Under the pieces are notes generated by a model. It saw only the letters and a program-made list of their open reading frames with translations. It did no database searches and was not told the origin of the DNA. Below are positions 6,952-27,257 of a stretch of DNA of 33,317 nt, in pieces. How positions within the stretch are numbered: position 1 is the stretch's first letter; each line of letters starts with the position of its first letter. Origin of the DNA: a virus. Made by a program: the position numbers and the translations under genes. The DNA lies in IMG/VR virus record IMGVR_UViG_3300047365_000033, positions 1 through 33,317 of that record; one strand, given 5' to 3'.

Positions 6952-8298
6952 TTATCCTACCAAGTATCCCCAGAAAGCAGATTCGTTACCACCTTTAAAT
7001 TTAATAGTAGAAAAGTTTCCAGTGCGGTACATACAAACTGTATCGCCAGCATCTAACTGCATAAGGTGAGTGGGATTATGTGAATTATACACCGCATTGA
7101 AATTAGCATCAGTTCTAGTTCCACCTTTACTTTCATCTATTGTTGTAGCACCATTTACTATGAAAGCAATATACATCCAATTAGATCCACTTGTAAGATA
7201 ACCGCTACTAATTCCATTAGGAGATTCTAATTGTAATTCTGCTCCAAACAAATACATTCCAGCAACTGGTGCTGTGAATTCACTAGTAGAAGTATTAAAA
7301 TTACTACCCCTATCCATATTTTCTTCGTCAAAAGGAATTTTTGTCCAACCGTCTGACGCTACATTCCAAGTGGTCTCACTAACAGAATACCTAGCAATAA
7401 ATCCTGGTTGCTTTGGTTTTGTTACATAACCATCAGAAGTTATAACAAGTTTGTCGGAATAACTATTACCGCTTGTCTGGAATTTTAGACTTCCTCCATC
7501 GACACCAATAAATCCAATTGTACTGTCGTCTGAATCTTCTAGTCCTATGAATGAATTACCACCTGTGCCCTCAAAGTAAGCAACTGTTCCAGATCCCTTG
7601 ACATGCAATTCATAACTAGGATCGGTTTCTCCGATACCCACGTTGCCAACATTAGTACCAGCAGTTTTCAACATTAATCCAAATGTTGTCCCATGTCTTA
7701 GTCCTATGTAATCTTGTCCGCCGCCAGATCCAGCAATAGATCCAGAAACATTAGCAACACTAAAAGTAGATCCTGTTGTAATTGTGCCTACAGAAGTGAT
7801 ATTTCCATTACCAGAATCAATAGAACATCTAGCAGCACCAACTGCATCTGATGAAGTTCCAATTAAAAGAGATCCATATTTACTAATTCTACTAGAAAGT
7901 CCTGTAGGAGTGCTGCCACCCTCAATTTTGATTTGATCAGTCAGCGTGACGGCACCGTTTGCTGTAATAGATAATTTCTCTGTTTTTGTACCGCCTATAT
8001 CAGAAAACAGTTGGAAAGTTTTCGATGCTGCGTTTGTTGTTTGAGAGTAAAGATCAACTGTGGAATCCGTTAGATCTATGTTGGCACTAACTTCCAAGGA
8101 TCCACCAATCTTAGCATCACCACCAGTCCAAACTAATTCATTACTAGCATTAATCTCTAAACTATTGCTACCCTCAATCAATCTATCAGTAGGAGTAACA
8201 CCCAGTCCAATCCACTTAGAACCATCATAGGTGTAAGTGATAGATCCTACAGTAAAAGTATCATTGTTACTAGGACTTGCTGGAAATACAATTGCCAT
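6952..8298 (-). CDS. Tail-fibre-like protein with C-terminal C1q domain, 448 aa
   Basis: The N-terminal module (MAIVFPASPSNNDTFTVGSI, then TYTYDGSKWIGLG) is shared with two other proteins in the cassette (starts at 19305 and 20300) and probably attaches or caps the fibre. The centre is beta-repetitive with the tail-spike hallmark GNVGIGETDPSYELHVKGSG. Residues 295-448 resemble a C1q/TNF-like jelly roll: GFIARYSVSE, WTKIPFDEE, FTAPVAGMYLFGAEL, AGDTVCMYRTG and SAFWGYLVG. C1q domains are trimeric ligand-binding heads, so this is a plausible receptor-binding tip. A late promoter motif lies 29 bp upstream. Confidence 0.85.
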   Translation of the reverse strand: MAIVFPASPSNNDTFTVGSITYTYDGSKWIGLGVTPTDRLIEGSNSLEINASNELVWTGGDAKIGGSLEVSANIDLTDSTVDLYSQTTNAASKTFQLFSDIGGTKTEKLSITANGAVTLTDQIKIEGGSTPTGLSSRISKYGSLLIGTSSDAVGAARCSIDSGNGNITSVGTITTGSTFSVANVSGSIAGSGGGQDYIGLRHGTTFGLMLKTAGTNVGNVGIGETDPSYELHVKGSGTVAYFEGTGGNSFIGLEDSDDSTIGFIGVDGGSLKFQTSGNSYSDKLVITSDGYVTKPKQPGFIARYSVSETTWNVASDGWTKIPFDEENMDRGSNFNTSTSEFTAPVAGMYLFGAELQLESPNGISSGYLTSGSNWMYIAFIVNGATTIDESKGGTRTDANFNAVYNSHNPTHLMQLDAGDTVCMYRTGNFSTIKFKGGNESAFWGYLVG

Positions 8299-8326: not shown

Positions 8327-8334
8327 TATTTATT
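8327..8334 (-). promoter_or_regulatory. Late promoter motif AATAAATA
   Basis: AATAAATA on the minus strand overlaps the stop of the 1220-aa gene and lies 29 bp before the start of the C1q protein gene. Confidence 0.6.
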
Positions 8335-11300
8335 ACTTAGCGTTAGCTGTTTGGAATGGCGACTCAGCAATTGCCATGAAGATTATGGTCTGTCCACTTT
8401 CATTAGAGAAAACATAATTCTTTCTAATTTTAAATCCATTTGAAAGAAAATCAATTCCAGGTTCATCAATTTCACTAGCATCAGTTGATGGTCTTAGATT
8501 TAATCCTACTGGATTGGTAGGATTTCTAGAACTATCATAGATATGCCAATCTCTTTCCGATCCTGTAACAAGTTTTATCATAAGGAATGCGGGTTTGAAT
8601 CCACACCAGATTACAGGTCCGTCATCATCAGAATTTCCGACATAACTTCCAAACTTACTGAAACCTTCCACTTCCGCCCACGCATAGAAGGCGAGATTGT
8701 TATCATTAGTTGCTCCGTTAGCACCAACATAAAATACATCAGAAGTTGGAGATGTTAGAGCCCAAGAAGAAGTGCTATCTGTCTCAGTAAATTCAGTGTT
8801 TGGAATATCCCAGTAAGAAACTTTAGTATTTCCACGAGCTTTGTGATACACCGCCCAACCACTATTAGCATTTCTTTCTTTCACCACGACCATCGCTGGA
8901 ACTTTTCCAAGTCCATGACCGATGGATTGGTTAGCCTGAAGGTTTCCGGTAAAAGTTCCACAACTAAATCCAGCGGTTTGGTTTACAGAAACTTGAGATG
9001 CTATTGTACCATTAGTGTTTGCTACTGCGGCACCACCAGCCTTCCAGCACCAAGCCACATAGTCCTGTCCTGATTGGTTTGTTCCTGTATATTGTCCTAC
9101 ACCAAAACCATCATCATCAAAACTGATTAGTCCACCATTTGTTACAAGTCCTTCTGTCGTATTAATCATCACGAGCTGTCTTAATTCTGGACCTCTAACA
9201 CTATCAAATAGAATGTGTCCCTCAGTATTAGTCCTTGACTTCACCCAGACGAGATCTGGTTTGAAACCGACGCCAGTAATTCCTCTCGAAGTACCACTTC
9301 CTTCGTAAAGCACACACTTAAAGTGCTCACCAGGATCAGCAACAGCAGGAGTAGGTAAGTTATCCTCACACAATGCTAGGAAACCAGTAGGGGGTTCATA
9401 ATGGAACTTACCAATTCCATTGTCATCAGTGTAGCATTCATCAATTTCAGACACCACAATTTCATCTAGAGAGTAATTTGAACCTGAGAAACCAGTAAAG
9501 TTAAATTCTCTAGTTCCTTGAATTATAAAAGAATAATAGTTTCCAGAACTGAGACCACTGGGAGCAACTGATCCATCAATAGCGGTCATATATCCTTGGT
9601 CGTTTTGAACTCCTAAGTTAGCTGGACCCGAAACATATTTGAATGAAAGTAGATAGGTTTTCTTAGGATCAATCGTTCCATCACTAGCTAACAACCATGC
9701 CCTAGCATAATTACCACTAGGAACATTAACACTAATCGCAGTGCCACCAGAACTAACAGTCCAGTCAACATGTGTTCCACCATTACTAGATTGATGCCAT
9801 ACATCATTACCAGTTCCATTGTTAACTCGGTTCTTATTTACTGCTTTGAGATTTGCAAATGTTTGGTTTTGACCGAAGTTTACATGAATGGATGGCACTT
9901 TATCGCTGTAGTTGTCACCACACATAACTAATAGATCTTCTGTAGAAGGTAAATTAGTATATGCTGCATTGCTATTAGTTGCTGGATTTCCCGAAGCAGT
10001 CCATGATCCATTTCTACCCCACCAAATGGATCCGTTTTCAATATCAGCAGCCATCATAATTACATCGCCGTTAGAAAACGAACCACCATAAGAAAGACCT
10101 GAACCTGACTCACCGTTAGCTTTATTTCCAGTATCTCCACGAACTAACCAGCAATCACTAGATGCAGTGGTATCAATGCCACCAGCGAAGGGTGTATTAT
10201 ACTTTGCTGCGCCAACATAGACACCAATAGCATCTGATGGTAAATAAAATTCACAATATACTTTGTCTTTAATTGCCGTATTTGACACAGCAGTTGTGTC
10301 ACTACCACCAGTAGCACCACTTGTAACTGTCAAATTACCCTTGGTGTATGTCAGTTGATCCTGTCTACCTATACCAAAAATAGGATTCAAAGTAGCAAAG
10401 TTATTCTTACAAGTATCAGCAGTTGTTCTAAATGGTTCAATACCTACTGGTGTATATGGTTTGGAAACATCAAAACCACCTTTGTATTTTGCTACACCTT
10501 TGTAGATACGGAGGTCTTGAAGGTATCCCTGCATTGGTCTAGTTCCATCACCACCATTACTTCCAATGTGAAGGCGATTTAAATTAGTATATTGTGTAGA
10601 GAGATAGTTACTTGTGACTGCAGTAGTTCCAACAGAAACACCATTCACCCAAGCAGTAATCCTATCTTTTGGAGTAGTTTCATACACGCAAGCAATGTGG
10701 TTCCACTGTCCTAATTTAACTACGTTTGGTATACTAACTTGAACATCTTGGTTGCTGCTATTCCTTAGCATCCACCTTAAGGTTCCTCCATCAACACTAA
10801 CTAACCATCCCGTATTACCATTATCCTGGTCATATTGAATGACGTGAGATCCAACCGAATCGAAGGAATTAATATAACACCAGAATTCTACTGTATAATC
10901 TCCGTCAGGTGTAAATGCTGTTCCAACTGTAGCTCTTGGGCAAATACTATTATTAGTTACATCCAGAGAAGAACCATAATATAATCCCTTATCTCCTGTA
11001 ATTTTTGCTTGGTTTCCAGATGCAATTAACCAATTAACTGCAGGAACAGAACTAGGACCACCAAGAGCTATGTGATAATCACCCAGTCCAGGAATAGTTG
11101 AACTGACAGCACCACCTTGACCGAATCCACCAGCAACAAAAGGACAAGCAAGAATTAAATTGGCAGCAAAAGGATCAGTTCTTAACTGACTGACATAAGC
11201 ATCAGAAGTTGTAGGAGCTCCATTACGTGGTTGTGGTAAGTCCTCTCCCTTCAGTTTGATAATACTATTAGGATCACAGTGGAAGTCAGCACCAGGATTA

Positions 11301-11995
11301 GAACTATCATTCATAGGCAGATAGAATCCATTGACTCCAAATCCACCACTACGATTGATCGTATACTTGATTGACTTTGGTGCTCTAGGACTCCATTGTC
11401 CTGGTCTAAAATCAGTTGCTTTTTCAGTTCCAGAAGACATATAACCGTCTCCATCTTTATAAAAACCAAACACATCTGGTGTGAGTGCTTGACCGTCTAC
11501 AAGATACAGATCAAACATTTGTCCATCAGTTGATCTTAGTGAAGTATCATCTCTTCTTCCTATGATATGTTCATATGGTCCATTGATTGCTAAGTCTGCA
11601 TTCTGACTAATGTTACCAACATCATCATAAATGTATTCCATACCATTAATCCAAAATCTTTGAATTTTATCTGGAGTTAAACTAGAAATAGTTGTATCTA
11701 CTGATAAACATATATGCATCCAAGAACCAGGATCTCTAGAATGTGCAGCACTACCTCCAGGTCCAGTAAAAATAGCAGACATACTAGTAGTTCCTGTAGT
11801 TCCCCATCTACCATCACTATAATGATATAAGTGAAATCTATTACTATTATCTGTACTTGTTCCAGCAGCAACACTCCACACAGTGTTGTATTGACTACTT
11901 CCAAAATCTTTGTTAATCTTTATCCAACCTGCCCAAGTCCATTTCTTACGATTACCAGTGCTGGTAGGAGTTCTCTTTAAACATTCGTTTGCCAT
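8333..11995 (-). CDS. Large adhesin/tail-fibre protein with LamG-like and SPRY-like domains, 1220 aa
   Basis: Residues 15-170 resemble a concanavalin A/LamG fold (KKWTWAGWIKINKDFG, SWMHICLSVDTT, QRFWINGMEY, GQMFDLYLVDGQALTPD). A second LamG-like domain lies at about 362-508 (DYTVEFWCYINSFD, GQWNHIACVYETT, ITAWVNGVSVG, GYLQDLRIYKGVAKYKG). Residues 558-715 look SPRY-like (KVYCEFYLPSD, FSNGDVIMMAADIENGSIWW, HVNFGQ). After a YEPPTGFLALCEDNLPTP linker (about 860-880) come related C-terminal units with the pattern GFKPDLVWVK, GKVPAMVVVKERN and GFKPAFLMIK, a layout common in marine cyanophage fibres. These folds bind sugars or proteins, so host-surface recognition is likely; the exact ligand is unknown. 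Confidence 0.88.
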   Translation of the reverse strand: MANECLKRTPTSTGNRKKWTWAGWIKINKDFGSSQYNTVWSVAAGTSTDNSNRFHLYHYSDGRWGTTGTTSMSAIFTGPGGSAAHSRDPGSWMHICLSVDTTISSLTPDKIQRFWINGMEYIYDDVGNISQNADLAINGPYEHIIGRRDDTSLRSTDGQMFDLYLVDGQALTPDVFGFYKDGDGYMSSGTEKATDFRPGQWSPRAPKSIKYTINRSGGFGVNGFYLPMNDSSNPGADFHCDPNSIIKLKGEDLPQPRNGAPTTSDAYVSQLRTDPFAANLILACPFVAGGFGQGGAVSSTIPGLGDYHIALGGPSSVPAVNWLIASGNQAKITGDKGLYYGSSLDVTNNSICPRATVGTAFTPDGDYTVEFWCYINSFDSVGSHVIQYDQDNGNTGWLVSVDGGTLRWMLRNSSNQDVQVSIPNVVKLGQWNHIACVYETTPKDRITAWVNGVSVGTTAVTSNYLSTQYTNLNRLHIGSNGGDGTRPMQGYLQDLRIYKGVAKYKGGFDVSKPYTPVGIEPFRTTADTCKNNFATLNPIFGIGRQDQLTYTKGNLTVTSGATGGSDTTAVSNTAIKDKVYCEFYLPSDAIGVYVGAAKYNTPFAGGIDTTASSDCWLVRGDTGNKANGESGSGLSYGGSFSNGDVIMMAADIENGSIWWGRNGSWTASGNPATNSNAAYTNLPSTEDLLVMCGDNYSDKVPSIHVNFGQNQTFANLKAVNKNRVNNGTGNDVWHQSSNGGTHVDWTVSSGGTAISVNVPSGNYARAWLLASDGTIDPKKTYLLSFKYVSGPANLGVQNDQGYMTAIDGSVAPSGLSSGNYYSFIIQGTREFNFTGFSGSNYSLDEIVVSEIDECYTDDNGIGKFHYEPPTGFLALCEDNLPTPAVADPGEHFKCVLYEGSGTSRGITGVGFKPDLVWVKSRTNTEGHILFDSVRGPELRQLVMINTTEGLVTNGGLISFDDDGFGVGQYTGTNQSGQDYVAWCWKAGGAAVANTNGTIASQVSVNQTAGFSCGTFTGNLQANQSIGHGLGKVPAMVVVKERNANSGWAVYHKARGNTKVSYWDIPNTEFTETDSTSSWALTSPTSDVFYVGANGATNDNNLAFYAWAEVEGFSKFGSYVGNSDDDGPVIWCGFKPAFLMIKLVTGSERDWHIYDSSRNPTNPVGLNLRPSTDASEIDEPGIDFLSNGFKIRKNYVFSNESGQTIIFMAIAESPFQTANAK

Positions 11996-11998: not shown

Positions 11999-12181
11999 TC
12001 AACCCAATGTGGTGGAACCTGATGGAACATAATCAGTGAAAAGCTCTACCCACTCAGTGCCATTATATATTTTGTAAGCATTCTCTACAGTATTGAAGTA
12101 TTGATCTCCTTCAGTGTTGTTGCTAGTTGGATCACTAGCAAGGGCACCTAACATCTTTGTGCCGTTGACATATAGTGCCAT
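11999..12181 (-). CDS. Small fibre-associated protein, 60 aa
   Basis: The product reads MALYVNGTKMLGALASDPTS, then EGDQYFNTVENAYKIYNGTE and WVELF, ending near SGSTTLG. The segment GDQYFNT-x-x-x-AYKIYNGTEWVEL resembles the short GDLWY...YYNDGATSQWVD module of the larger fibre proteins, as if one module were encoded alone. AGGAGG lies 8 nt before the ATG, which overlaps the stop of the 1345-aa gene (TAATG). It may be a small collar, linker or chaperone-like fibre component; the role is inferred. Confidence 0.8.
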   Translation of the reverse strand: MALYVNGTKMLGALASDPTSNNTEGDQYFNTVENAYKIYNGTEWVELFTDYVPSGSTTLG

Positions 12182-15100
12182 TAGTTTACCTCCTGAAGCA
12201 TGAATTTGTACTTCTTACCGCTCCTTCTATTTATCAGGAACAGGTCTTCCTCACCCTCTTGAATTGTGTACTGACCCCAAGTTCCATCTACCTCGTTAGC
12301 AGCACCCTCGTTAGATAGTTGAAGGTCAGCAGAGTAGATGTTTGCGAAACGCTTAGTTGCTGAACCCAGATCCAAAGCACTATCTGTTTCTGGAGTAAAT
12401 GAGGATGTAGTAAGGTTCATTACAGCACCATTATTACCTACACCAAATCTCATGGTTTCAGTTCCATGATCGTATGCTAAGTATCCAACTGAAGCATCAT
12501 CTGTATCACCAAAATTCAAATATGATGTTGATGCGTTACCACCAATAATATTTACTTGACAACCACTAGCAGCAGTTGAAGCTCTAAAAAATGTTGCTAC
12601 AGATGGACCAGGAAGAACTGGAATAGTTCCACCAACATCAATTAGAATGGCAGAATCAAAAGTGCTAGCACCACTTACACTTAGCGTTCCATCAACAGTT
12701 AGATTAGTTGGCAATCCATACGGCGAGGAATCAACCCACTGAGATGTAGCTCCATCGTTATAGTATACAAACAAACGACCATCATCAGAATCATACCAAA
12801 GATCTCCAGGGTTAGGAGCAGAAGGAGCAGTGGTTGAAATAATAGCTCCACCACCAATGTTACCCCAAGCAGATCCATCATATACTTCAGTAGAACCAGT
12901 CGTGGTATTCCACCTAAGCATACCAGTTTCAGCAGAACTATCACGCTGAGCAGTAGTACCATTTGGAACTTTAAGTGATCCAGTTCCAGTAAACGCAAAC
13001 GATGGAGCACCACAACTGGTTACTGCACTACCAAGTGCGTAAGGTGTTCCCGCATTACCTAAATCAATTTGACCTTGACCGCCACCATTAGTAGGTCCAA
13101 TGACTTTACTTGTATCACTAGCAATCAAAATACCATTTACATAATAGTTCTTGCTAGATGCAAGATCCATATGCTCAGAAGATAACCAAGTGTTGTAAGT
13201 TACACCACCATCAGTTCCTTTCCAAAGGAATGTCTTATCAGTTAATCCCTTGACAATAAGACCACCATCTTCAGCCGCAGAATCAGAAGGACCAATAGCA
13301 CTAAAGGTAACAGCACCAGAACCAGTTACATTGTTTGTAAGTACAGCAGAGTTGCCAGTAATAGAAAGAATTGTTGTGCCGCCAGGAACTGTGATGCCTG
13401 CTGTGTTAGATATGACTTCCATACCAGGAATCAATCCTAGTGTGGGAGCAACGTTTGCAATATTTGCGCTGCCATCAGTTGTGTTAGCAGTAAACTGTGT
13501 ACTGACAACTGCTGCCAACTCAATGTTTTTATCAGTAATCTGAATAATATTTGACTTGATCGTGGTGGTGACACCATTAACTGTTAGGTTACCTTTAACA
13601 ACAGCATCACCATCTACTGTTAGATCATTGTTTAAAGTAATATCATAGTTAGAATCACCACGAATCCATGCTTGACCACCAGAACCAATAACTAATTGGT
13701 TGTCTCCCGAAACATCCAATGGTCTGAATGTTACATCAGAAGAATTCTCATTATATGCAGGACCAATAAGGACATTGTTACTTCCTAATACATCAAAACC
13801 TGCGTAGTGTCCGATACAAACATTGGAATTACCCGTTTGATTTGACTCCAATACATTATTACCAACACCAATATTTCTACTGCCAGAAAGATTAACAAGC
13901 AATACATCTTTACCAACACCAACGTTGTTACTTCCAACACCATTTACTCTTAATACTCTATGACCTACTGCAGTGTTAGAAGCACCAGCATTATTTGTAA
14001 ACAGTGATTGATATCCAAATGCCGTGTTCTGAGAACCAGAAGAGTTTGATTGTAATGCTTGTACACCAACACGAGTGTTTGTATTAACAGCACCGCCGCC
14101 ACGACCAACGCTCATTGCATCTACATCGGTTCCACGAATTAGAATGTCAGCACTCTCAGAATTAACAACACCATTAAATGTAATGGTATCATTTGTATTA
14201 ACACCAACTGTTAGATCTTTGGTGACTACTAAATCATGATTGATTGTTGTCGTGCCAGTAGCAGCACCCATTGTAATACTACCTGCTGCTCCACCAAATT
14301 GAATGCTAGTAGCACCAGAATTAAGTAGATTAAAACCAGTAGAGGTAGTAGTGATACCTGTAAGAATTGTTGGGTTGGTTTGGAACACCAGTTTATCCAA
14401 ACCCGTCGTGTCTGTAATTAAACCACGCATCTGTGTGGATGTGGTTGATGCAAACGTTGCTAATGTGTCTGATGTATAAGCAACGTTACCACCTTGCCTA
14501 AAGTTTGCTGTGATAGATCCATTAGAATTATCAGAAGTTAATAATAAAGATTCATCCACATCAAATACTTTTGTGGAAGCAATATCAATACTAGCAGATG
14601 CTGTAGATACAATCTCCAGACCGTTAACTGATGTAGCAGTAGCTGCTCCAAGGGTAGGTGCGGTAAGAGTTGGAGAAGTTAAAGTTTTGTTTGTAAGAAC
14701 TTGTGTCTCATTTTCTGTTACAAATCTATTGTCAACAGATCCATCAAAAGATCTCCAATATCCACCAGCATTATACCATTGAATAGATTGATAGGTTGTT
14801 ACAGATCCATTAACATCAGATGTTAGGTTAACCTGAACGCCGCCATCATTAGCAACTAGACTATCACCTTTTCTAAGTTCAATAATATTATCTTCTACTA
14901 CCAAGGTAGTAGTGTTCAGAGTTGTTTGAGTTCCATCAACAACCAAGTCACCACCAATAGTAACAGTAGAACCATTATCAGTAATCAAACTATTAGCTAA
15001 CTGACTGTTACCAGCATCCCATTTAACTACTGTATTACCACTGAAGTTAGCAGCATTTTTTAATTGGAAATCTGCGCCAGATAATATGACACCATTAGAT

Positions 15101-16218
15101 GCAGTAAGAGAAGCACCTGTATCAGAGTTAATAGAACTAATAGTTAGTGTAGTTACACCTGCTGCGGTTGCTTGACTAACACTAGTAGCACCTGTTCCGA
15201 CAATTTTAAAGTCTCCTGCTGTTACAACATTCGATCCAGACGCAAGTCGAGTTACCGTATTAGTATCAATACTAGCAATACTAATTACATTTCCTGCTTG
15301 AGATACAGTAACATTTGATCCACCTGTAAACTCAACATCTCCTGTTACTAAAGTTCCTGCTCCACCACCTTTGACTCTAGTGATAGTATCAACAGAACTA
15401 TAAGTAATTGTGGCATCACCGTTCCCATCTAAACCTTGGGTTACTGTGGATGCGCCACCATCCAAGAAAGTATAATTACCAGATGCTAATGTTTGACCTG
15501 ATGTTGCTCTGATTTTAGTAATCGTATCAACATATGTTGAATTGATTGTAATTGTTTTTGATACTGGATCCTGAGATACCGTAGAAGATCCAGTTGCAGC
15601 AATAGTAATATCACCTGTCTGTGCTGTGCCACCAACAGAAGATTTTAAAGTAGTTACTGTATCAGCATCAGGAGCAGTACCAGAAATAGTTACAGTATCA
15701 CCAGATCTATCAATAGAAAGAGCAACAGCATTAGAACCACCAGGAACAGAACCAGGAGGTCCGACTGCGATGTTAATATCATCAGTGCCAGTTCCAGATC
15801 CACCAGCAGTTAATCTAAATGTTTTAGTGTTACCGTTAATGCCATCGACCGCGCTGATGGCATACGTTGTATTATCGTTTGGTGTTACTACACTTCCGCC
15901 TAGAGCAATAGCAGAACCATTAATTGTAATAGTAGAGTTTGTAAACGCACTGTTTGGAATGTTAGTTAATGTATTAACAGATCCAGAAATAATACTATTT
16001 TCTAAAGTTTTATTAGTTAGTGTTTGTGTTTGAGTTAAGTATACATCACCCGGAGCGCCCCAGAATACCGTAGTTCCATCACTACTCAAATACTTACCGG
16101 CACCAGTATCACCACTAACAACAATCCCGTTGCCAGTTAATTCTAAATTGTCCCCTGCTACAATTTCTTCAATCTTCTTTGAAATTGCATTAACAATTAA
16201 CGGAAAGCGGTCAGCCAT
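12181..16218 (-). CDS. Very large tail-fibre-like protein with YadA-like repeats, 1345 aa
   Basis: Highly repetitive beta-structured protein rich in Thr, Gly, Asn and Val. It carries TQTLTNKTL (near residue 66) and TQVLTNKTLTSPTL (near 510), signatures of cyanophage fibre shafts. Around residues 705-820 there are tandem left-handed beta-roll repeats as in trimeric autotransporter heads (GVQALQSNSSGSQNTAFG, YQSLFTNNAGASNTAVG, NVLESNQTGNSNVCIG). Near 1120-1170 is the GDLWYDSDDGRLFVYYNDG...QWVDSSP module shared with two other fibre genes. The C-terminus has DSALDLGSATKRFANIYSAD, which often precedes a trimerisation tip. No signal peptide. A late promoter motif lies 32 bp upstream. Probably a long trimeric fibre. 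Confidence 0.88.
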   Translation of the reverse strand: MADRFPLIVNAISKKIEEIVAGDNLELTGNGIVVSGDTGAGKYLSSDGTTVFWGAPGDVYLTQTQTLTNKTLENSIISGSVNTLTNIPNSAFTNSTITINGSAIALGGSVVTPNDNTTYAISAVDGINGNTKTFRLTAGGSGTGTDDINIAVGPPGSVPGGSNAVALSIDRSGDTVTISGTAPDADTVTTLKSSVGGTAQTGDITIAATGSSTVSQDPVSKTITINSTYVDTITKIRATSGQTLASGNYTFLDGGASTVTQGLDGNGDATITYSSVDTITRVKGGGAGTLVTGDVEFTGGSNVTVSQAGNVISIASIDTNTVTRLASGSNVVTAGDFKIVGTGATSVSQATAAGVTTLTISSINSDTGASLTASNGVILSGADFQLKNAANFSGNTVVKWDAGNSQLANSLITDNGSTVTIGGDLVVDGTQTTLNTTTLVVEDNIIELRKGDSLVANDGGVQVNLTSDVNGSVTTYQSIQWYNAGGYWRSFDGSVDNRFVTENETQVLTNKTLTSPTLTAPTLGAATATSVNGLEIVSTASASIDIASTKVFDVDESLLLTSDNSNGSITANFRQGGNVAYTSDTLATFASTTSTQMRGLITDTTGLDKLVFQTNPTILTGITTTSTGFNLLNSGATSIQFGGAAGSITMGAATGTTTINHDLVVTKDLTVGVNTNDTITFNGVVNSESADILIRGTDVDAMSVGRGGGAVNTNTRVGVQALQSNSSGSQNTAFGYQSLFTNNAGASNTAVGHRVLRVNGVGSNNVGVGKDVLLVNLSGSRNIGVGNNVLESNQTGNSNVCIGHYAGFDVLGSNNVLIGPAYNENSSDVTFRPLDVSGDNQLVIGSGGQAWIRGDSNYDITLNNDLTVDGDAVVKGNLTVNGVTTTIKSNIIQITDKNIELAAVVSTQFTANTTDGSANIANVAPTLGLIPGMEVISNTAGITVPGGTTILSITGNSAVLTNNVTGSGAVTFSAIGPSDSAAEDGGLIVKGLTDKTFLWKGTDGGVTYNTWLSSEHMDLASSKNYYVNGILIASDTSKVIGPTNGGGQGQIDLGNAGTPYALGSAVTSCGAPSFAFTGTGSLKVPNGTTAQRDSSAETGMLRWNTTTGSTEVYDGSAWGNIGGGAIISTTAPSAPNPGDLWYDSDDGRLFVYYNDGATSQWVDSSPYGLPTNLTVDGTLSVSGASTFDSAILIDVGGTIPVLPGPSVATFFRASTAASGCQVNIIGGNASTSYLNFGDTDDASVGYLAYDHGTETMRFGVGNNGAVMNLTTSSFTPETDSALDLGSATKRFANIYSADLQLSNEGAANEVDGTWGQYTIQEGEEDLFLINRRSGKKYKFMLQEVN
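12228..12235 (-). promoter_or_regulatory. Possible late promoter motif GATAAATA
   Basis: Minus-strand GATAAATA lies inside the 3' end of the 1345-aa gene, 47 bp before the start of the 60-aa gene. Location and motif fit a late promoter for the 60-aa and 1220-aa genes, but the distance is larger than for the other sites, so it may be chance. Confidence 0.4.
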
Positions 16219-16259: not shown

Positions 16260-18329
16260 TTAGGATATAATGATCTGTCCTACCATTCCACTATGAAACT
16301 GACAGATATAATAGTATGTTCCAGGTGTTACTCCAGTAGTGTCCCATGTGACAGCAGCACTAACAGTTCCTTGTCCGGTAATAGTTCCAGTAGAAACTTG
16401 GTTACCTGTTCCAGTGGTAGCAGATGTCTTTACAAAGAATGGATGACCAGCTGCGTTAACATTAAACACTAATGTATCACCCACATCACAATTTATAGTT
16501 GGATCATTAGCATTACTGTGTGTTCTAGTAGAGTCAGTTCCAGTAAATGTATAATGTGATGCTCCACTGTTTCCTACAGTAAACGTATACGTTTGTGGTG
16601 TTGGTGGAACTGCTGCAGGAGATGGTCTATTGAATGTAGCAGTTCTGGGAAAAGTAAGTCCAGTAGATCTAGTACCCTCTACTTCACTCATGTATCCAGA
16701 CACCCGTCTTGGATTTTCAATATGTAGATACTTATTAGGACTGCCTTGACGACAAGAATTGTCATCTAACAATCCACCAGCAACATCAAATGTCATATCT
16801 CCATAGATGCTATGCCGATCCAAATATCTCAAAGCATCTGCTTGTGTGAATCTTTCTTTTGCTGTAGCAAGACATGCAATCACACCACATACCTGTGGCG
16901 ATGCCATACTAGTCCCACTAATTACATCATAATAATTTCCACCACCACCATATTTGGTATCAGAAGCTCCAGTATTACCAAATGATGAAAGTATTAGATC
17001 TCCAGGAGCGAAGACATCAATAGCAGGTCCAAACATAGTGTAATTAGATCTCCTGAAATCAGAATGATCGGATAAGGCACCTACAATAATGGATCCACTA
17101 TCAGGATTATTGGGCCACGATCCTCTATTATAGTAGAAGGATTCATTCTCTCCGTCTTTAAAAATTGTGAGATAGTTGTTCCAGTCATCAGTAGGAACTA
17201 CTGAGGGTGTTGCCACCAACAGATTATCATTACCAGCGGATCCAATAACTACAATGCCATCATCAATTGCATCCTGAACATCAGCAGCAACAGATGAAGA
17301 CCATGATGGATATGTTTCTAGACCAAACCTTATACCAAAATCCAATCCCAATCCAGCTTCAGTCCAACCAGATGGTCCAGGAGAACCTGAATTATATGTC
17401 ACTCCATGAAAAGTTACAGATATAAGATCAGCAAGATCTAATCTGTAAATATTATTACCTTCGCCATCAGTGCCTTTCTGTGGCATATACAAAATACCAC
17501 CATAACTATGGTTGGTAATGGTAGGATTTTTTTTCCCAGTCTCTGGATTGATTGGTTTATTTAAATGAAATGCTCTAAGGTAATCAAAGATAAGTAGAGC
17601 AGGAAATTGTTGCCCACTATCCCATGAATCTGTCACTGCCATATTATAAATGTTTGCCTCAGTCGCCCACCCATAATGTCTACCTGTCGCAGTTCCAGTA
17701 ACATGTATGCCATGATACTGAGCAGTATTGAGGTTGGGAGCATAGACAATTGTTCCTGTTGGAAGAGTCTGTCCGTCATCATCAATAGAACTAACAGAAC
17801 TATTCAGTTCGTTAAACCATTGATACTCAACAAACCTTGATTGTATTGATGAAGGACTGTACCACTCCTGACTATCAAATGATACAGGATCATCTACGAT
17901 AACTACATCAACATGTCTCCCATTATTAAATACATCTACGTTATCAGTAATAACTTCTGTTACTGATCCATCACCCCACGTAGTCTTTCTTCTCTGTGCT
18001 TGATCTCCAGCACAATGTAGTTGTCCCCATTGCCTTAGATTGGGGTTTAATGTTGTTCCTACAGGAGCATTTTTCCAGAAGTCTCCACCAATATTATAGG
18101 GTTCATTATTAATAACTTGTCTTTTAATCTTAAAATTATCTACTGCTTCGACTCCCCATACTCTAGGATCTTGACGCAATCTTTCCGCTTGATCTTCTGT
18201 CATCATATAGTGTGTGTTCCTACTCATAGGACGCTTCAACACTAAAGGAAATCCAGTAAGTTGCATCTCATTATAAAACTTCTCCAGATCATTTTTATCA
18301 CGGAGAGTTACAACATATTGTTTATCCAT
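16260..18329 (-). CDS. Subtilisin-like serine protease with C-terminal cupredoxin-like domain, 689 aa
   Basis: N-terminal residues 1-65 (MDKQYVVTLRDKNDLEKFYN, then VWGVEAVD) resemble an I9-type propeptide. The S8 peptidase domain follows: Asp146/147 in VDVVIVDDPV, His206 in QYHGIHVTGTATG, Asn367 in VIGSAGND, and the nucleophile Ser474 in SGTSMASPQVCG. After a Pro-rich linker (about 565-580), residues 580-689 look like a cupredoxin: AGHPFFVKT (His629) and YYYICQFHSGMVG (Cys676, His679, Met682), the four type-1 copper ligands with a Cys-x2-His-x2-Met spacing like amicyanin. No signal peptide is evident. It lies in the fibre cassette, one base after the preceding gene. It could process fibre proteins or degrade host-surface proteins; copper binding is a prediction. 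Confidence 0.9.
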   Translation of the reverse strand: MDKQYVVTLRDKNDLEKFYNEMQLTGFPLVLKRPMSRNTHYMMTEDQAERLRQDPRVWGVEAVDNFKIKRQVINNEPYNIGGDFWKNAPVGTTLNPNLRQWGQLHCAGDQAQRRKTTWGDGSVTEVITDNVDVFNNGRHVDVVIVDDPVSFDSQEWYSPSSIQSRFVEYQWFNELNSSVSSIDDDGQTLPTGTIVYAPNLNTAQYHGIHVTGTATGRHYGWATEANIYNMAVTDSWDSGQQFPALLIFDYLRAFHLNKPINPETGKKNPTITNHSYGGILYMPQKGTDGEGNNIYRLDLADLISVTFHGVTYNSGSPGPSGWTEAGLGLDFGIRFGLETYPSWSSSVAADVQDAIDDGIVVIGSAGNDNLLVATPSVVPTDDWNNYLTIFKDGENESFYYNRGSWPNNPDSGSIIVGALSDHSDFRRSNYTMFGPAIDVFAPGDLILSSFGNTGASDTKYGGGGNYYDVISGTSMASPQVCGVIACLATAKERFTQADALRYLDRHSIYGDMTFDVAGGLLDDNSCRQGSPNKYLHIENPRRVSGYMSEVEGTRSTGLTFPRTATFNRPSPAAVPPTPQTYTFTVGNSGASHYTFTGTDSTRTHSNANDPTINCDVGDTLVFNVNAAGHPFFVKTSATTGTGNQVSTGTITGQGTVSAAVTWDTTGVTPGTYYYICQFHSGMVGQIIIS

Positions 18330-18330: not shown

Positions 18331-19305
18331 TCAAACCTCTAATGGAACTAAAGTTAATGTGATTTGTAAGCTCACCGGACCACCACTCTTGTTAACAATT
18401 TTAGCATAAGTAATATTAGATCCACCACTATTATAACAAATTGTTCCTGGTGTAATTAATTGTGTTACAGCACCTGTAGTTACAATCTCTGCTAATACAC
18501 CAGAACCAGGAACTGGATCAGTAGTTTCTGATCTACTCTGATCATTTGATCTGCTAGTTGTATCTGCATACAACGTTGCCCAAACAGCATGAGATGTTTC
18601 CATCTTCAATAGAGCATATGTTTTTGGTGTCGTAATTGAAATATCAGTAGCAACATTATCTTGAATTCCATTAGCAGTATACGAAATAGTTTTTCTAACA
18701 CTAGGAGCATCAGCATTTACCCAATTGCTACCATTATAACTAAGAACTTGTCCCGTAGTAAGAGTTGTCTCTACAACATTACCAACAGCATCTAGCGATC
18801 CCAGAGACCCTGCAGATCCAGTGACACTAATAGTATAAGATCCTGATAGTCTAGCAGCAGGTAATGTGCCAGCATTTTGATTGCTAGAGTTTAGATAGTA
18901 AGATCCCTCTTGTCCGTCTAAGAGATCAGCATCTAGTCCACCGCCAATACCAGTAGCAGTATTTTCCCACTTGAGATTTGATTGATTCCATGCCAACACA
19001 TCTCCATCAGTAGGAACTCCATGGTTAACATCAAGGTGTGTATTAAGATTACCAGTTGATGTCAGATAAGATGAAAGATCGGGTGGAGTTAATGTAAAAA
19101 CACCATCATTAAAATTATATGCTAGTGAACCACCCCCAGAAGCAGCAGCATTAGTAGCACTAAAGACAGTTCTGTCTGTAGCAGTAGCACCACCGCCAGC
19201 AGCAGTCCAACTCTCGCCGTTCCACGAGTAAGTAATACCTGCTACAACATAGGTAAATGTTCCATCTACTGCTTGCCCTGCTGTTGAGGGAAAATTAATT
19301 GCCAT
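18331..19305 (-). CDS. Tail-fibre-like protein, 324 aa
   Basis: Starts with the cassette's N-terminal module (MAINFPSTAGQAVDGTFTYV, then GITYSWNGESWTAAG). The centre contains LAYNFNDGVFTLTPPDLSSY and LDADLLDGQEGSYYLNSSNQ, elements recurrent in phage fibre shafts. The last 120 residues (TYALLKMETSHAVWATLYAD, RSETTDPVPGSGVLAEI, LITPGTICYN) match the C-terminal domain of the 999-aa protein, so this is a shared tip module. AAGGAG lies upstream of the ATG and a late promoter motif 24 bp upstream. Likely a receptor-binding or accessory fibre. Confidence 0.83.
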   Translation of the reverse strand: MAINFPSTAGQAVDGTFTYVVAGITYSWNGESWTAAGGGATATDRTVFSATNAAASGGGSLAYNFNDGVFTLTPPDLSSYLTSTGNLNTHLDVNHGVPTDGDVLAWNQSNLKWENTATGIGGGLDADLLDGQEGSYYLNSSNQNAGTLPAARLSGSYTISVTGSAGSLGSLDAVGNVVETTLTTGQVLSYNGSNWVNADAPSVRKTISYTANGIQDNVATDISITTPKTYALLKMETSHAVWATLYADTTSRSNDQSRSETTDPVPGSGVLAEIVTTGAVTQLITPGTICYNSGGSNITYAKIVNKSGGPVSLQITLTLVPLEV

Positions 19306-20333: not shown

Positions 20334-20609
20334 TTATCTATTGTAGTACCCTCTTGGGAAGAGCAATCCAAAGTATGGTCTCCTACCACGTAGGAATCCA
20401 CGTTCAGACCTTCTACGTTCACGAGGAGAAGCACCTTTGTCTAGATCAGTAATGTCAAAATTTTGTGGTCCCAATGGAGGACCAGAAACTCTATCTAAAC
20501 TAGAGAAGTCTGGTGTGATAACCGCAGTAGAAGTAGTAGCAATCAATTTAGTTGTGTCGAAACCAGACACCACAGCGCCTGGTGTTTCGGAGAGTGTTAT
20601 ATTTGCCAT
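20334..20609 (-). CDS. Small putative structural protein, 91 aa
   Basis: The N-terminal half (MANITLSETPGAVVSGFDTT, then KLIATTSTAVITPDFSSLD) is beta-like. The C-terminal third is strongly basic and aromatic (SPRERRRSERGFLRGRRPYF, then GLLFPRGYYNR). There is no signal peptide or membrane helix. Its ATG overlaps the stop of the 775-aa gene (TGATG), so the two are probably made together and may assemble together. I do not recognise a family beyond its position among virion genes. Confidence 0.78.
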   Translation of the reverse strand: MANITLSETPGAVVSGFDTTKLIATTSTAVITPDFSSLDRVSGPPLGPQNFDITDLDKGASPRERRRSERGFLRGRRPYFGLLFPRGYYNR

Positions 20610-22936
20610 CAGGTTGTACGTGCGAGGAATAGCATACCCATAGAACTATTATTATCTACGTTATCAAGACCGTTCTGACTAGTTTGATATCCAGCTAGAA
20701 CAACTTCATAAATCTCAGAAGCACTGACTGTTACAGTATCTCCTGGTCTGAATACAGTTGCTCCTGGTGTAGTTGAGAACTGAAGCATGACAAAATCATC
20801 AGGTAAGTAGTAAGGGCATGGAACCATGTTATGTGCGACAGGAATACCTTTGATTGGTTTGTAATAATCAGCAGCAGGATTTACAGAATTACCATTATAT
20901 TGATCGTAAGTGCTGTTTCTATAGTAAGTCATAATCTCATTACTAGTAGTTTCTTCATTGTCAGTGTCAATATTACATTTATATCTTGACAAGAAATTAG
21001 TTCCATAATTTGTATCTCTCATGTATCCGTAAGAAGCTTCCCTAGATTTAGAGTATGTGTTTGCTGGTTCTTCAGTTGGTCTATCAGTAGATCCGGCATA
21101 ATATCCGGGGGAAATATATGACATGTCAATAGCTCTAGTTGTGGTGCTATACTGTGTGATTGATCCAATGTATACATTGTCTAAGTCCCAGACATTGGAT
21201 CCAAAGGTAGCACCATTATGAATTGTGAATTGTCCGTATGGAATAATACTTCCATTAATTGTTTGGGTGAATTGAATGACCGCAAAATTTGTATCTTGTG
21301 GTGCCTGTGCTCTATACACCCTGATACTCAATGGATAAGCAGTTGGTGTCGAGGAACTAGCATATGTAAATCTCGTGAAAGAACTATTACTATCTCTATT
21401 AATATAATTTTGACTATTTCGTCTATCTAATCCAGGAGCTCCACCAAAGTATCCATATTCAGTTGTACCATTAAGAATTCCAGAATTTGTGCCAAATCTA
21501 TTTAAGTAATTCCAATGATTACCACTATTAATATACATGGTATTGCTATTATAATTTGCCGTACCAAAACCATAATATGATGTGCCATAATCTTTAGCAG
21601 CATCATTCACAACTTTCAATACAGCAAAACGACCGTCATCACTTTTCTGATAGAAGTTAGATCCTGCACCCAAATTTGTTATGTAAATTTGACAGACTCC
21701 ATCATTAGCACCAGTAGAAGATTCTGGAGTTCTTGTACCAAAATTAATATCATCCGATGGAGTCTGTCCACCAACCTGATCTCCTGGGATTGTAAACGTA
21801 TCACCATTAGTCCATCCAGATCCAACACTATGAATTGTAATTCCTTCAAGTTCCGAACTTTGACTTACATCTCTATAAACTCTCAATTTTAATTCCGATC
21901 TACCACCATTTGCTGGAACAGTATATTTCCAGTATGGATCCCATCCTGAGTTAGAACTAGCTCTTGGATTAACACGGATTTCTCCTTTCATACCAGCATG
22001 GGTATCATTAGCATAGATATACTTTTTGATTCCATAATTGTCAGTGATAGATCTGTATACTAAAGGAATTCTCTCATCAGGAAGGCTTCTTTCATCTTCA
22101 GTTTGTTTCCAATAATAAGCTTGCCAATTCAATTCACCGGAGGTAATATTACTAGTGCTAGCAAGAGATGCAGAGCTAGTAGTAGCGTAAGACGTTCTAA
22201 AAGTCGAATCATTTAGTAGTTTAGCAGCATCGTAGTTATCAGTGCCGCCACAGAGACTGAAGTCACCACCACTTGTGTCAGTTACATTAAACTTAATCTG
22301 ATCTCCAGTTCCTATTTCAATAGTGCGGTTATCAAATTGAGCGTCATCAATGTCTCTAAAGTAAGAAAGACTAGAACCTAGTGCAGCACTATCACTCCAA
22401 ATATTACCATACAACAAATCAATTGCTACTCCATTACCAGCATCAACAGCATTAGCCGCTAGTTTAATCTTTGTAGAATCAACTACAATAACATAATAAA
22501 CTGTATCTAATGTAAGTCCATTTAAATTTTTGTTATTATCAGATTCACCAGGACCCCAGTGAATTGGATCTCCTGTTGTTAAACCATGCATCCAACTAAA
22601 AGTAATCTCATCAGTATCAGAGTTAGGACCACCAGATGTATAAGTCGCAATAATATTTTTTTTCAGCATTCTATATGCCGAAGTTCCCTGACTGATCACA
22701 TCATATTGCCATACACGATATGAAAGATTTCCCCGATCCTGAACAGCAGTATTCCATCCTAAATTAAAACCTCTTTCTCCTGTTGGAGAAACAACAGTTA
22801 CAGGAACTCCACTTACAGCGGAACCACCATGAAATCCTAGGTTGGCAAACACAGTCTCTAACGCATCCATTACGTCGGTATTAGTCCAACCTGTGTTGCC
22901 GTTATTGACATCAACGACTGACCTTAAAATTGCCAT
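20609..22936 (-). CDS. Large putative virion structural protein, 775 aa
   Basis: No repeats of the fibre-shaft type. The N-terminus MAILRSVVDVNNGNTGWTNT with TDVMDALETVFANLGFHGGS suggests a short helical attachment region; the rest is Tyr/Asn/Ser/Gly-rich beta structure. One stretch (DEITFSWMHGLTTGDPIHWG...DTVYYVIVVDSTKIKLA) is typical of phage adhesin domains; another is VYRAQAPQDTNFAVIQFTQT. GGAG lies 10 nt upstream of the ATG, 6 bp after the 999-aa gene. Size, context and composition support a virion protein, perhaps a baseplate-attached fibre or spike. Specific function not determined. Confidence 0.8.
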   Translation of the reverse strand: MAILRSVVDVNNGNTGWTNTDVMDALETVFANLGFHGGSAVSGVPVTVVSPTGERGFNLGWNTAVQDRGNLSYRVWQYDVISQGTSAYRMLKKNIIATYTSGGPNSDTDEITFSWMHGLTTGDPIHWGPGESDNNKNLNGLTLDTVYYVIVVDSTKIKLAANAVDAGNGVAIDLLYGNIWSDSAALGSSLSYFRDIDDAQFDNRTIEIGTGDQIKFNVTDTSGGDFSLCGGTDNYDAAKLLNDSTFRTSYATTSSASLASTSNITSGELNWQAYYWKQTEDERSLPDERIPLVYRSITDNYGIKKYIYANDTHAGMKGEIRVNPRASSNSGWDPYWKYTVPANGGRSELKLRVYRDVSQSSELEGITIHSVGSGWTNGDTFTIPGDQVGGQTPSDDINFGTRTPESSTGANDGVCQIYITNLGAGSNFYQKSDDGRFAVLKVVNDAAKDYGTSYYGFGTANYNSNTMYINSGNHWNYLNRFGTNSGILNGTTEYGYFGGAPGLDRRNSQNYINRDSNSSFTRFTYASSSTPTAYPLSIRVYRAQAPQDTNFAVIQFTQTINGSIIPYGQFTIHNGATFGSNVWDLDNVYIGSITQYSTTTRAIDMSYISPGYYAGSTDRPTEEPANTYSKSREASYGYMRDTNYGTNFLSRYKCNIDTDNEETTSNEIMTYYRNSTYDQYNGNSVNPAADYYKPIKGIPVAHNMVPCPYYLPDDFVMLQFSTTPGATVFRPGDTVTVSASEIYEVVLAGYQTSQNGLDNVDNNSSMGMLFLARTT

Positions 22937-22941: not shown

Positions 22942-25941
22942 TTATTCTCCGATCTGTAGTGCTGTTAGAGTAACTGTAATTGTAGTTGCCGATCCACTTC
23001 TGTTAGTGACTGACAAATAAATGGTGTCCGTTCTTGGACTATCATTATTAAACCCCATGATGCCTGGGGATATTAGAATTGATTCTGCTCCAGATGTTCT
23101 CACTTCAGAAATAACACCGCTACCTGGGGTAGGATCTTCTCCCTCACTTCGTGTAGTATCAGCATCTCTTGACGCATCATCTACATACACTCGCACCCAT
23201 GCCTCAGCATCAGTAGTAACTTTAAATAACGAATAGGCTTTGTAACCTGTAATATTTAGTTCTGCTGATTGGTCAGCAGCAAGTGATGCGGTAGTTCCAG
23301 AAAGATCTTGAATTGATGGAACACTAGAACCACCAGTAGCAGTCAGGACTCCATTGCCATCGATAGATAAACCAGAACCTACTTTAATACCACCAAGTGT
23401 TGTGGCATCTGCTGTTGGTAGTGTATATCCCCCAGCATTAGCACTAAGAATACCATCGCCATCTATGCTCAGATTAGCACCAACTTTAATACCACCTAAA
23501 GTTCCTGCTGCAGCAGTAGGTAATGCATATGCTGACGGAATAGATGGTTTATTGAGAATCTCTGCTAGTCCTGATGTTGCATCCCAGTCTGGTTGAACTG
23601 GTGCTGTGCTACTAATAGTAATTTTTTCATTGGGACCATCCCAAGAAACGTCAGTTCCACCACCACCAGTAATTTCAATATTATCTTCGTTATTATTAGC
23701 ATCCAGTAGAGTAATAATAGCATTATTGCTATTAGTATTAGAACCCACTAAGTCATAAGTAGTTCCACCACCACCTCCACCGCCTGCTTGTGCTGTGGCA
23801 CTAAGAGAGTTGTTAGTATCATCATATGTAAATGTGATATTTGTATGTGTACCATTAGCAAACATCGTAGCAACAGCATCTTGTGCTTCCTCATCAGTAT
23901 AGAACTGAGAAGAAATATCAGGTGCTCTGAATGTAATTGTATTTGCGTCAGTGTTTTCTACTGTTAAACCATCAGCACCAGCAAAAACAACATCATCTAG
24001 GACTCCCTGACTATCAGTTAATCTTAAGATGGAGTTAGCACCAGAAGATGCCTCAACAGAAATGCCATACGTGGTGTCAACTACATCATTGTTGAATGTA
24101 ATCTCGTTATTAGATTTGACTACTGATAATCCTGTTCCTGCTGTCAGGATAATATCACTAGTAACACCTTGAGAATCCGATAATCTTACAATTTTTCTAG
24201 CATTATTATATGCTGCTGATCCACCTGTAGTATAATCTATTGCGCTAACAGAATATGTTAGTTGAGTATTAGCAAGTAGTGTAGCAAAGTCGGATGAAGT
24301 GGAACTATTGGTAGTAACAAGTCTCTGACTAGTCCAACTTACAGAGTTGGAATAATACATCGCACCAGTCGCTTCAGAGTATGAGAAAGCACCAGTATTT
24401 ACATTTGCTCCAGGGAAGAATGCTACACTAGCATACACATTTTCAAATGGATCGCCAACAGGAGAAGCATCAACCCACTGTGCTGTGTTGCCATCATCAT
24501 ACCACACCTTCATGGTGCCTTCATCAGACTTCCACCACATGTCTCCTGGCGATGGACTAGATGGAGCAGCATCTGAAATAGATGCTTTAGCAGTAATTGA
24601 TGCTGGAGCATTTACCCAATCACTACCATTATATGATAATACATCACCATTAGTTGGTGTGCTAATTGTAACATCACCAAGAGAATTGATAGAACTTGAA
24701 GTTGTTAGATACCCAGCATCATTTGTAAGTTCACTTGCGTTGATAGCAAAATTATAATAGGTAGATCCATCGTTAGTAAACTGCCACCTATCAGTGGTTT
24801 CATTCCATTTAATACTTACATCAGCATCAGTACCCCTCTCATTTGTAAGGAGAGCATCTAATCCACCAGACGCTTGGTTCTCGTTGAGAACTATTTCGTT
24901 ATTAGTTACATTTAAGGTTGAAACGTTATTAGTAGTTGTTGTTCCAAGAACATTTAAATTTCCACTTATATTAAGATCGGTTAGAGTAACTGTAGTTGTT
25001 GTGCTAGCTCCTCTGGCAGTAATACTAGCTAGTGTATCGGTTTCTGTATACGATTCTAAGTATGATGGAGTATAATTAATCCAATTAGAACCATTATATT
25101 TCAACAACTGATCTGCAACTGGTCCACTAATAGCAACATCACTCAATAATCCAATTGAAGAAGAAGAAAGACCAGTTAGATAACCTGCTTGCCCATGATC
25201 TCCCCACGTATAAGCAGTGTCCCAGTTAGATACATTAGTAAGAGTAATTCCAGCAGCAACTGAAGCAGTGAATACAGGGTCAGTCTCTGAATATGAGGTT
25301 ATATAACCCTGAGTGGCATGATTACCCCACCCATATGATGTGTCCCAGTTAGTCTTATTCTGTGTAGTAATTCCAGCAGCAACTGAAGCATTAAATACAG
25401 GGTCAGTCTCAGTATATGTTGTAATATATCCTGCTTGACTATGATCTCCCCAAGAATATGCAGTACTCCAGTCGATTCTATTCTGACTGGTAATCTGATA
25501 CGCTGGAGACGCTAAGAAAATAGGATCTGTTTCTGTATATGTTGTAAGATATGAAGAAAGATCTGGCGGAGTAAATGTAAACTCACCATTTGCTTGGTTG
25601 TATGTTAGTGTCGAAGAACCAACACCAGTTAATACAATACTAGGTTGTGCTGGAATAACTGGTTTGTTTAAAATCGCAGAAACATCATTACCAGTAGCAT
25701 TCCAATTAGATTGAATTTGAGCAGCAGGAATTGTAGGTGTGTTGGTAAGACTAAGATAACTGCCATCAAAAGGAGTAGTCCACTGAATAGAAGCACCAGT
25801 TGCTGTAAGAACTTGACCAGAAGCACCTGGAATGCCTGCTGCTTGTAGTGGTTTTCCAGCAGGAATATTTACACCCTCCTTCACCTCAACAGGAGAGTTA
25901 TCCCCGTAGTTGGCAATTTGGTTTGCAAGAATTTTTGACAT
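22942..25941 (-). CDS. Large tail-fibre-like protein with 41-residue repeats, 999 aa
   Basis: N-terminus MSKILANQIANYGDNSPVEV, with VNIPAGKPLQAAGIPGA, is a common start of cyanophage fibre proteins. Residues 134-256 hold three 41-residue repeats (TYTETDPVF, NWDTAY-x-WGDH, AGYLT). Near residue 465 is the module GDMWWKSDEGTMKVWYDDG...QWVDASP. Shaft-like repeats with AAGTLGGIKVGANLSIDGDG and DATTLGGIKVGSGLSIDGNG occur near 820-860. The last 120 residues (KAYSLFKVTTDAEAWVRVYV, GEDPTPGSGVISEVRTSG, LISPGIMGF) match the tip module of the 324-aa protein. A late promoter motif lies 38 bp upstream. First gene of the fibre cassette in transcription order. Confidence 0.88.
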   Translation of the reverse strand: MSKILANQIANYGDNSPVEVKEGVNIPAGKPLQAAGIPGASGQVLTATGASIQWTTPFDGSYLSLTNTPTIPAAQIQSNWNATGNDVSAILNKPVIPAQPSIVLTGVGSSTLTYNQANGEFTFTPPDLSSYLTTYTETDPIFLASPAYQITSQNRIDWSTAYSWGDHSQAGYITTYTETDPVFNASVAAGITTQNKTNWDTSYGWGNHATQGYITSYSETDPVFTASVAAGITLTNVSNWDTAYTWGDHGQAGYLTGLSSSSIGLLSDVAISGPVADQLLKYNGSNWINYTPSYLESYTETDTLASITARGASTTTTVTLTDLNISGNLNVLGTTTTNNVSTLNVTNNEIVLNENQASGGLDALLTNERGTDADVSIKWNETTDRWQFTNDGSTYYNFAINASELTNDAGYLTTSSSINSLGDVTISTPTNGDVLSYNGSDWVNAPASITAKASISDAAPSSPSPGDMWWKSDEGTMKVWYDDGNTAQWVDASPVGDPFENVYASVAFFPGANVNTGAFSYSEATGAMYYSNSVSWTSQRLVTTNSSTSSDFATLLANTQLTYSVSAIDYTTGGSAAYNNARKIVRLSDSQGVTSDIILTAGTGLSVVKSNNEITFNNDVVDTTYGISVEASSGANSILRLTDSQGVLDDVVFAGADGLTVENTDANTITFRAPDISSQFYTDEEAQDAVATMFANGTHTNITFTYDDTNNSLSATAQAGGGGGGGTTYDLVGSNTNSNNAIITLLDANNNEDNIEITGGGGTDVSWDGPNEKITISSTAPVQPDWDATSGLAEILNKPSIPSAYALPTAAAGTLGGIKVGANLSIDGDGILSANAGGYTLPTADATTLGGIKVGSGLSIDGNGVLTATGGSSVPSIQDLSGTTASLAADQSAELNITGYKAYSLFKVTTDAEAWVRVYVDDASRDADTTRSEGEDPTPGSGVISEVRTSGAESILISPGIMGFNNDSPRTDTIYLSVTNRSGSATTITVTLTALQIGE
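25174..25542 (-). repeat. Three tandem 41-residue ETDP/WGDH repeats
   Basis: Three units in the 999-aa fibre protein with ETDP anchors at residues 137, 178 and 219, exactly 41 residues apart, each containing W-x-T-(A/S)-Y-x-WG(D/N)H. Confidence 0.9.
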
Positions 25942-27014: not shown

Positions 27015-27257
27015 TTAGTTTGTTACAGTGTCACGGACATAGCAGGGCACACCATCTGGATCTAACCATTTGGTATACTCTACATCTTCTAGACAGGTGT
27101 CTAGTTGCATTTGATTGTCAAGGAAATACATGTCAAAGTATCTCTTCTTCCACTCATGATACTTTTGAATACGGTAGTCAGGTCTACCGTTGATCTCCAG
27201 AAGACCGCACTGAACGTAGCGGTAAGGAAATCTCTCAAGAATGACAGTGGGTTTCAT
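27015..27257 (-). CDS. Hypothetical protein, 80 aa
   Basis: The product starts MKPTVILERFPYRYVQCGLL and is rich in aromatic and charged residues (YHEWKKRYFDMYFLDNQ, TKWLDPDGVPCYVRD), suggesting a small soluble fold. I chose ATG 27255-27257 because it overlaps the stop of the upstream membrane-protein gene (ATGA); a longer frame to 27302 would run into that gene. Function unknown. Confidence 0.78.
   Translation of the reverse strand: MKPTVILERFPYRYVQCGLLEINGRPDYRIQKYHEWKKRYFDMYFLDNQMQLDTCLEDVEYTKWLDPDGVPCYVRDTVTN

Follow-up and report, generated by a model that had tools for sequence, protein, structure and literature searches.

Our analysis revealed that one gene of the window (the whole 33,317-nucleotide stretch of DNA analysed here) encodes a subtilisin-like protease fused to a C-terminal cupredoxin, and that this cupredoxin is a mobile, exchangeable module of phage tail and fibre proteins. 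The domain anatomy of the protein, its intact active site and complete ligand set, the fold and mobility of the module and the fibre-operon setting of the gene were all computed here. Taken together they lead us to favour, by a modest degree, a virion-mounted zymogen protease with an exchangeable copper-competent fibre domain, in which self-cleavage, copper occupancy, virion location and substrate are what we infer.

Source phage and fibre operon

The protease gene lies on the minus strand within a cassette of fibre genes, of which the following are relevant here:

16260..18329, minus strand: protease-cupredoxin open reading frame, 689 aa, uninterrupted; putative propeptide, S8 subtilase, linker and cupredoxin
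18331..19305, minus strand: 324-aa cassette protein upstream of the protease; phrog_9627, with segments in common with tail-fibre families
12181..16218, minus strand: 1345-aa virion structural protein downstream of the protease; phrog_6002
22942..25941, minus strand: tail fibre protein of the same cassette; phrog_9729

The window is a fragment of a T4-like Synechococcus phage. The nearest named protein to the 689-aa product is that of Synechococcus phage ACG-2014e (Kyanoviridae, Chalconvirus), with 90.6% amino acid identity over the full length, and the PHROG match of the reading frame is phrog_9158, likewise full length (1196 bits). Only a 1-base gap separates the end of the 324-aa gene from the ATG of the protease, and the 324-aa protein, the protease and the large structural protein follow one another in the same way in the window, ACG-2014e, S-RSM4 and S-WAM2. 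The annotation of the gene that follows the protease in S-RSM4 points to similarity with a structural protein of S-PM2 that had been identified by MS. The genes around the protease in the window have their PHROG matches in tail-fibre and virion-structural families, which bears out the fibre cassette setting proposed for this gene, with the strand left unspecified, in a sequence-only reading made before our analysis.

Putative propeptide and catalytic domain of the protease

The full-length protein was modelled with AlphaFold2 using 45 homologues (mean pLDDT 87), and its parts ahead of the cupredoxin were assigned as follows:

18144..18329, minus strand: putative I9-type propeptide, residues 1-62; Inhibitor_I9-like, beta-alpha-beta-beta-alpha-beta in the model
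16701..18098, minus strand: subtilase catalytic domain, residues ~78-543; PF00082, proteinase-K-like fold
17892..17894, minus strand: catalytic Asp146; D in 78/78 ungapped rows
17712..17714, minus strand: catalytic His206; H in 78/78 ungapped rows
17229..17231, minus strand: oxyanion Asn367; N in 79/79 ungapped rows
16908..16910, minus strand: catalytic Ser474 (GTSMASP); S in 80/80 ungapped rows
16593..16700, minus strand: linker, residues 544-579; mostly disordered, 544-575 below pLDDT 50 in the model

The full-length protein matched Peptidase_S8 (PF00082) with E=1.8e-20 (73.9 bits vs a cut-off of 21.8), and proteinase K-type structures were the best PDB fold matches of the catalytic domain, at a target-normalised TM of 0.81 (up to 0.82). 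Catalytic residues were counted in an alignment of the window protein with 82 homologous ORFs, taking only the rows that cover the position. The Asp-His-Ser triad and oxyanion Asn named earlier were confirmed as D146, H206, S474 and N367, which are invariant in the homologues covering them. The fold, the triad, the oxyanion Asn and the propeptide-like N-terminus are common to this protein and to the proteinase K group of subtilases (MEROPS S8, PF00082); it differs from the solved members of that group, to which it is ~18% identical, by its place in a phage fibre operon, by the lack of an apparent signal peptide and by its C-terminal cupredoxin.

The anatomy described before, a protease followed by a cupredoxin, stands, while the putative N-terminal propeptide had been overlooked and was seen in the secondary structure of the model. 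Weak matches to Inhibitor_I9 (PF05922) were obtained for 16 of 25 homologues (best E 6.1e-4; 15.1 bits vs gathering 21.2), and the best PDB profile matches of residues 1-62 were subtilisin BPN' prosegments, at non-significant E values of 0.46-0.68. Since residues 1-62 resemble a subtilisin propeptide, the model suggests that the protein is made as a zymogen. A signal peptide is not apparent in the 689-aa protein.

Fold of the cupredoxin module

The module was also modelled as a stand-alone domain, together with 48 diverse modules:

16263..16592, minus strand: cupredoxin module, residues 580-689; model pLDDT 98.1, pTM 0.91
16443..16445, minus strand: predicted copper ligand His629 (GHPF motif), just ahead of a strand in the model
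16284..16304, minus strand: predicted copper ligands Cys676, His679 and Met682 (C-x2-H-x2-M), in the last inter-strand loop

Judged from the model, the module is a distant but clear cupredoxin (Greek-key beta-sandwich). Its best solved fold matches were nearly all type-1 copper proteins, at a query TM of about 0.5-0.6, and comprised rusticyanin, the cupredoxin domain of Hyphomicrobium nitrite reductase, AcoP, plastocyanin, pseudoazurin, amicyanin and a Nitrosopumilus cupredoxin. A sequence-profile search of the PDB with the module likewise placed copper nitrite reductases, amicyanins and plastocyanins on top. The Pfam family Copper-bind (PF00127) stayed below cut-off in the full-length scan (E=0.0074, 17.1 bits) and was just above its gathering threshold for the module alone (21.6 vs 21.2 bits).

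The ligand numbering given in the sequence-only reading (H629, C676, H679, M682) proved exact. In the model strands 670-676 and 683-688 bracket H679 and M682, and C676 ends the penultimate strand, as in known cupredoxins. Prediction of residues 580-689 gave a confident cupredoxin with the ligands in canonical loops; the objection raised in the sequence-only reading, that they might not be brought together, was examined at the level of fold and loop positions. The module has the order and spacing of ligands in common with amicyanin (His plus C-x2-H-x2-M), whereas plastocyanin and azurin have His-Asn at the first ligand in place of the His-Pro of GHPF, so that the second shell differs. Laccases carry His-Pro at the type-1 His, and the His-Pro-Phe of the module is closer to laccase than to the His-Asn of plastocyanin. 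From these residues we predict a type-1 copper site with a complete ligand set, which would be competent to bind copper. The fold is shared with the type-1 copper cupredoxins, from which the module differs by its fusion to virion-type proteins.

The module on other phage tail proteins

The cupredoxin occurs far beyond the protease. Matches to the module were found by tblastn in 102 phage records, nearly all of cyanophages, together with an actinophage and a podovirus, and a scan of IMG/VR yielded at least 430 stretches that encode a relative. It forms the end of gp9 baseplate connectors that also contain a T4_gp9_10_N domain, and is present on a tail-collar protein and on many collagen-like fibres. 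Among the matches in BFVD were named cyanophage baseplate connectors, proximal tail fibres, S74 and S8 proteins, as well as further proteins containing YHYH. In actinophage DSL-LC01 (L003:5140-6507) a YHYH domain, a predicted metal-dependent hydrolase (PMC7824862), is joined to the same cupredoxin, a fusion comparable to that with S8. Most complete cyanophage genomes contain 1-4 copies of the module; S-WAM2 has none and S-RSM4 one weak copy. In 16 of the 27 copies on collagen-like fibres the Gly-x-y run ends at most 60 residues ahead of the module, nearly always at its first residue, which suggests that on these fibres the module may cap the triple helix, much as C1q caps collagen.

Furthermore, module and protease can occur apart from each other. 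When 90 protease homologues were placed on a tree (a quick one with some long branches), a minimum of 8 gains or losses of the module on well-supported branches was required. The protease of P-SSM2 is devoid of the module, which is found instead near the N-terminus of a tail spike encoded by the next gene; the complete phages S-RSM4 and S-WAM2 keep the protease without the module. At one metagenomic locus (L035:2600-2790) the protease stops early, most of the module is deleted and the last 21 module codons are out of frame, an apparent deletion scar on a single contig in which an assembly error is possible.

The pairing of protease and cupredoxin claimed earlier therefore exists and is not specific, the module being present on many other tail and fibre proteins; a unique protease-cupredoxin enzyme was rejected on that ground. 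Because the module is exchangeable among such proteins, we regard a protease equipped with a common copper-type fibre domain as more likely than an enzyme dedicated to proteolysis plus redox chemistry.

Conservation of the ligands and possible role of copper

Twelve modules, 34-50% identical to that of the window, were chosen from tblastn matches without any peptide pattern. Among these modules, which come from varied contexts, seven columns are invariant and include all four ligands; if columns are treated as independent, the odds that four given columns all lie among seven out of about 109 are near 6 in a million. In a larger set thinned at 70% identity the HCHM ligands are complete in 74 of 83 copies, where their conservation ranks are third, fourth, fifth and seventh. 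As the peptide pattern used in that search included the Cys and the second His, copies that do not fit it were counted separately, and 25 of those 34 have all four ligands. A chance match of the ligands was rejected on these three counts.

The remaining 9 of the 83 non-redundant copies have lost ligands, some of them being the second or third copy in an ORF with several modules; the cupredoxin fold can therefore serve without copper. This bears on a less probable reading in which the cupredoxin serves for adhesion or caps a trimer simply as a beta-sandwich, comparable to Ig-like domains or C1q, with copper incidental or structural and the ligands holding the fold. Such a role would agree with the promiscuous occurrence of the module on fibres, where it follows collagen triple helices directly, with the existence of ligand-less copies and with the tolerated loss of the whole module. 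However, the axial Met, although weakly bound, and the other three ligands are as strongly conserved as core glycines and tyrosines at 34-50% identity, and a free Cys and Met are rarely needed for a purely structural purpose.

A redox-active site, which would pass electrons to or from a partner on the host surface or in the periplasm or handle Cu/ROS at adsorption, appears improbable to us. The type-1 ligand set is complete and the best fold matches are electron-transfer proteins, but the protein is without a fused redox partner or second cofactor, the same module is found on many fibre proteins without redox context, and it is distinct from phage plastocyanin.

Proposed action of the protease

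For the virion-mounted zymogen protease that we favour, the following course can be proposed. The I9-type propeptide would fold and then inhibit the proteinase-K-like domain, and the catalytic domain would free itself by a presumed self-cleavage. The enzyme may be built into the tail or delivered with it, where the cupredoxin on its flexible linker would most likely mount or display it, or else contact the cell. Bound copper might stiffen the beta-sandwich or join in the surface contact; copper is scarce in the cytoplasm, and the site would therefore probably be filled after lysis. At adsorption the protease would then trim a host surface protein (S-layer or outer-membrane) or a fibre protein.

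Alternatively, the protease may work within the infected cell or the virion under assembly, where it would mature fibre or baseplate proteins from its own operon, and not act as a host-surface enzyme, a possibility to which we give about one chance in three at best. The apparent absence of a signal peptide, the co-transcribed-looking place between fibre genes with the single-base gap upstream, and the conserved fibre neighbours agree with it. On the other hand, the fused module otherwise sits on external parts of the tail, and the conserved protease stands beside very different fibres in several related phages, which would all have to share a cleavage site. The structural-module and intracellular-maturation readings are both partly compatible with a virion-mounted zymogen protease and not fully exclusive of it.

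Origin of the module

Most of the cellular relatives found for the module are secreted or resemble lipoproteins; they belong to Flavobacteriia, OCS116/Rhodobiaceae (Alphaproteobacteria), Acidobacteria and Myxococcota, and some are only ~140 aa long. Among these cellular matches, which come from a non-exhaustive scan by two short peptide patterns, no cyanobacterial relative was found. At marine Alphaproteobacteria loci (L164, L170 and similar) ~430-aa proteins carry a divergent and a typical cupredoxin copy in tandem.

An origin of the module by capture of plastocyanin (petE) from a cyanobacterium or a phage would be suggested by the common fold family and by the presence of petE in cyanophages; the gene of P-SSM2 measures 345 bases (PMC3037559). 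We consider this origin highly improbable. In NCBIfam the module scored 26.2 bits for the plastocyanin equivalog vs a cut-off of 87.85, and 18.9 vs 110.2 bits for amicyanin, with rusticyanin also well below; a profile search of the P-SSM2 genome recovered four modules, all in ORFs of 566-1175 aa, and did not pick up the short petE; and the recovered cellular relatives are the secreted bacterial proteins mentioned above. A captured petE plastocyanin as the source of the module was rejected by the equivalog scores and the P-SSM2 genome search.

Relation to known phage proteins

S8 peptidases have already been recorded in cyanophages as T4-GC518, listed as of unknown function (PMC3037559). The window protein is of the same family and cassette as these cyanophage peptidases, among them the 'subtilisin-like serine protease' of S-WAM2 and S-H9-1 and the members of phrog_9158. 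The cupredoxin was not named for cyanophage S8 proteins in the UniProt, GenBank and PHROG entries examined, and the open literature searched on subtilisin/S8 in cyanophages or subtilases in tail fibres gave no account of the protease of the window phage. Cupredoxins on phage virions were likewise absent from the open literature searched, with subscription journals and preprints mostly outside it, so an earlier description is possible. The module apparently has gone unrecognised so far on tail and fibre proteins of aquatic phages, and the earlier remark that the combination has no established function holds within the same literature.

Metal in phage fibres has been described as His-x-His iron sites in T4 gp37 and marine phages (PMC11705849). 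Both cases have metal ligands, predicted ones for the module, built into receptor-binding tail parts of marine phages; the iron sites are octahedral and lie on the trimer axis, whereas the module is predicted to hold a type-1 copper site formed by one chain in a separate domain. As a tentative and rather doubtful extension, aquatic phages may carry a mobile copper-loaded cupredoxin family on baseplates, fibres and, in the window, a tail protease, and may use copper from the water in host contact. If true, this would be the analogue for copper of the 'Ferrojan horse' that has been proposed for iron, with virion metal mattering for adsorption or trace-metal chemistry. Should the module bind copper, type-1 copper sites would be common in the tails of abundant ocean phages, which would offer a testable reason for virion copper and tie adsorption to the trace-metal chemistry of seawater. 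The protein is as well a candidate for a protease capable of opening up the surface of marine Synechococcus, and the module is a domain that can be sought in hundreds of fibre proteins labelled 'hypothetical'.

Other genes of the window

A number of further genes of the window, all on the minus strand, deserve mention. The 775-aa fibre-cassette protein (20609-22936) is without a match in Pfam or PHROGs. A fibre-type protein (6952-8298) ends in a C1q domain (PF00386, E 4.7e-7), a trimer-capping fold known in animals. The 1220-aa fibre (8333-11995), with Laminin_G_3, a weak SPRY match and DUF7483, is likely to function in carbohydrate or receptor binding, as predicted from these domains. Two putative 2OG-Fe(II) oxygenases (PF13759; 6306-6920 and 25982-26434) flank the fibre cassette on either side and could hydroxylate fibre proteins; S-WAM2 also has a 2OG-Fe(II) oxygenase just ahead of its fibre cassette. 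A predicted multi-pass membrane protein (27254-28300; DUF401, PF04165, E 1.4e-10) is transporter-like, which is unusual in a phage. At 30219-30698 a SegE-type GIY-YIG endonuclease is encoded (PF19835, 3.4e-48). Similarly placed genes of S-WAM2 and S-RSM4 carry the label 'NAD synthetase', which looks wrong in view of this PF19835 match and of the S-WAM2 note, which itself mentions GIY-YIG.
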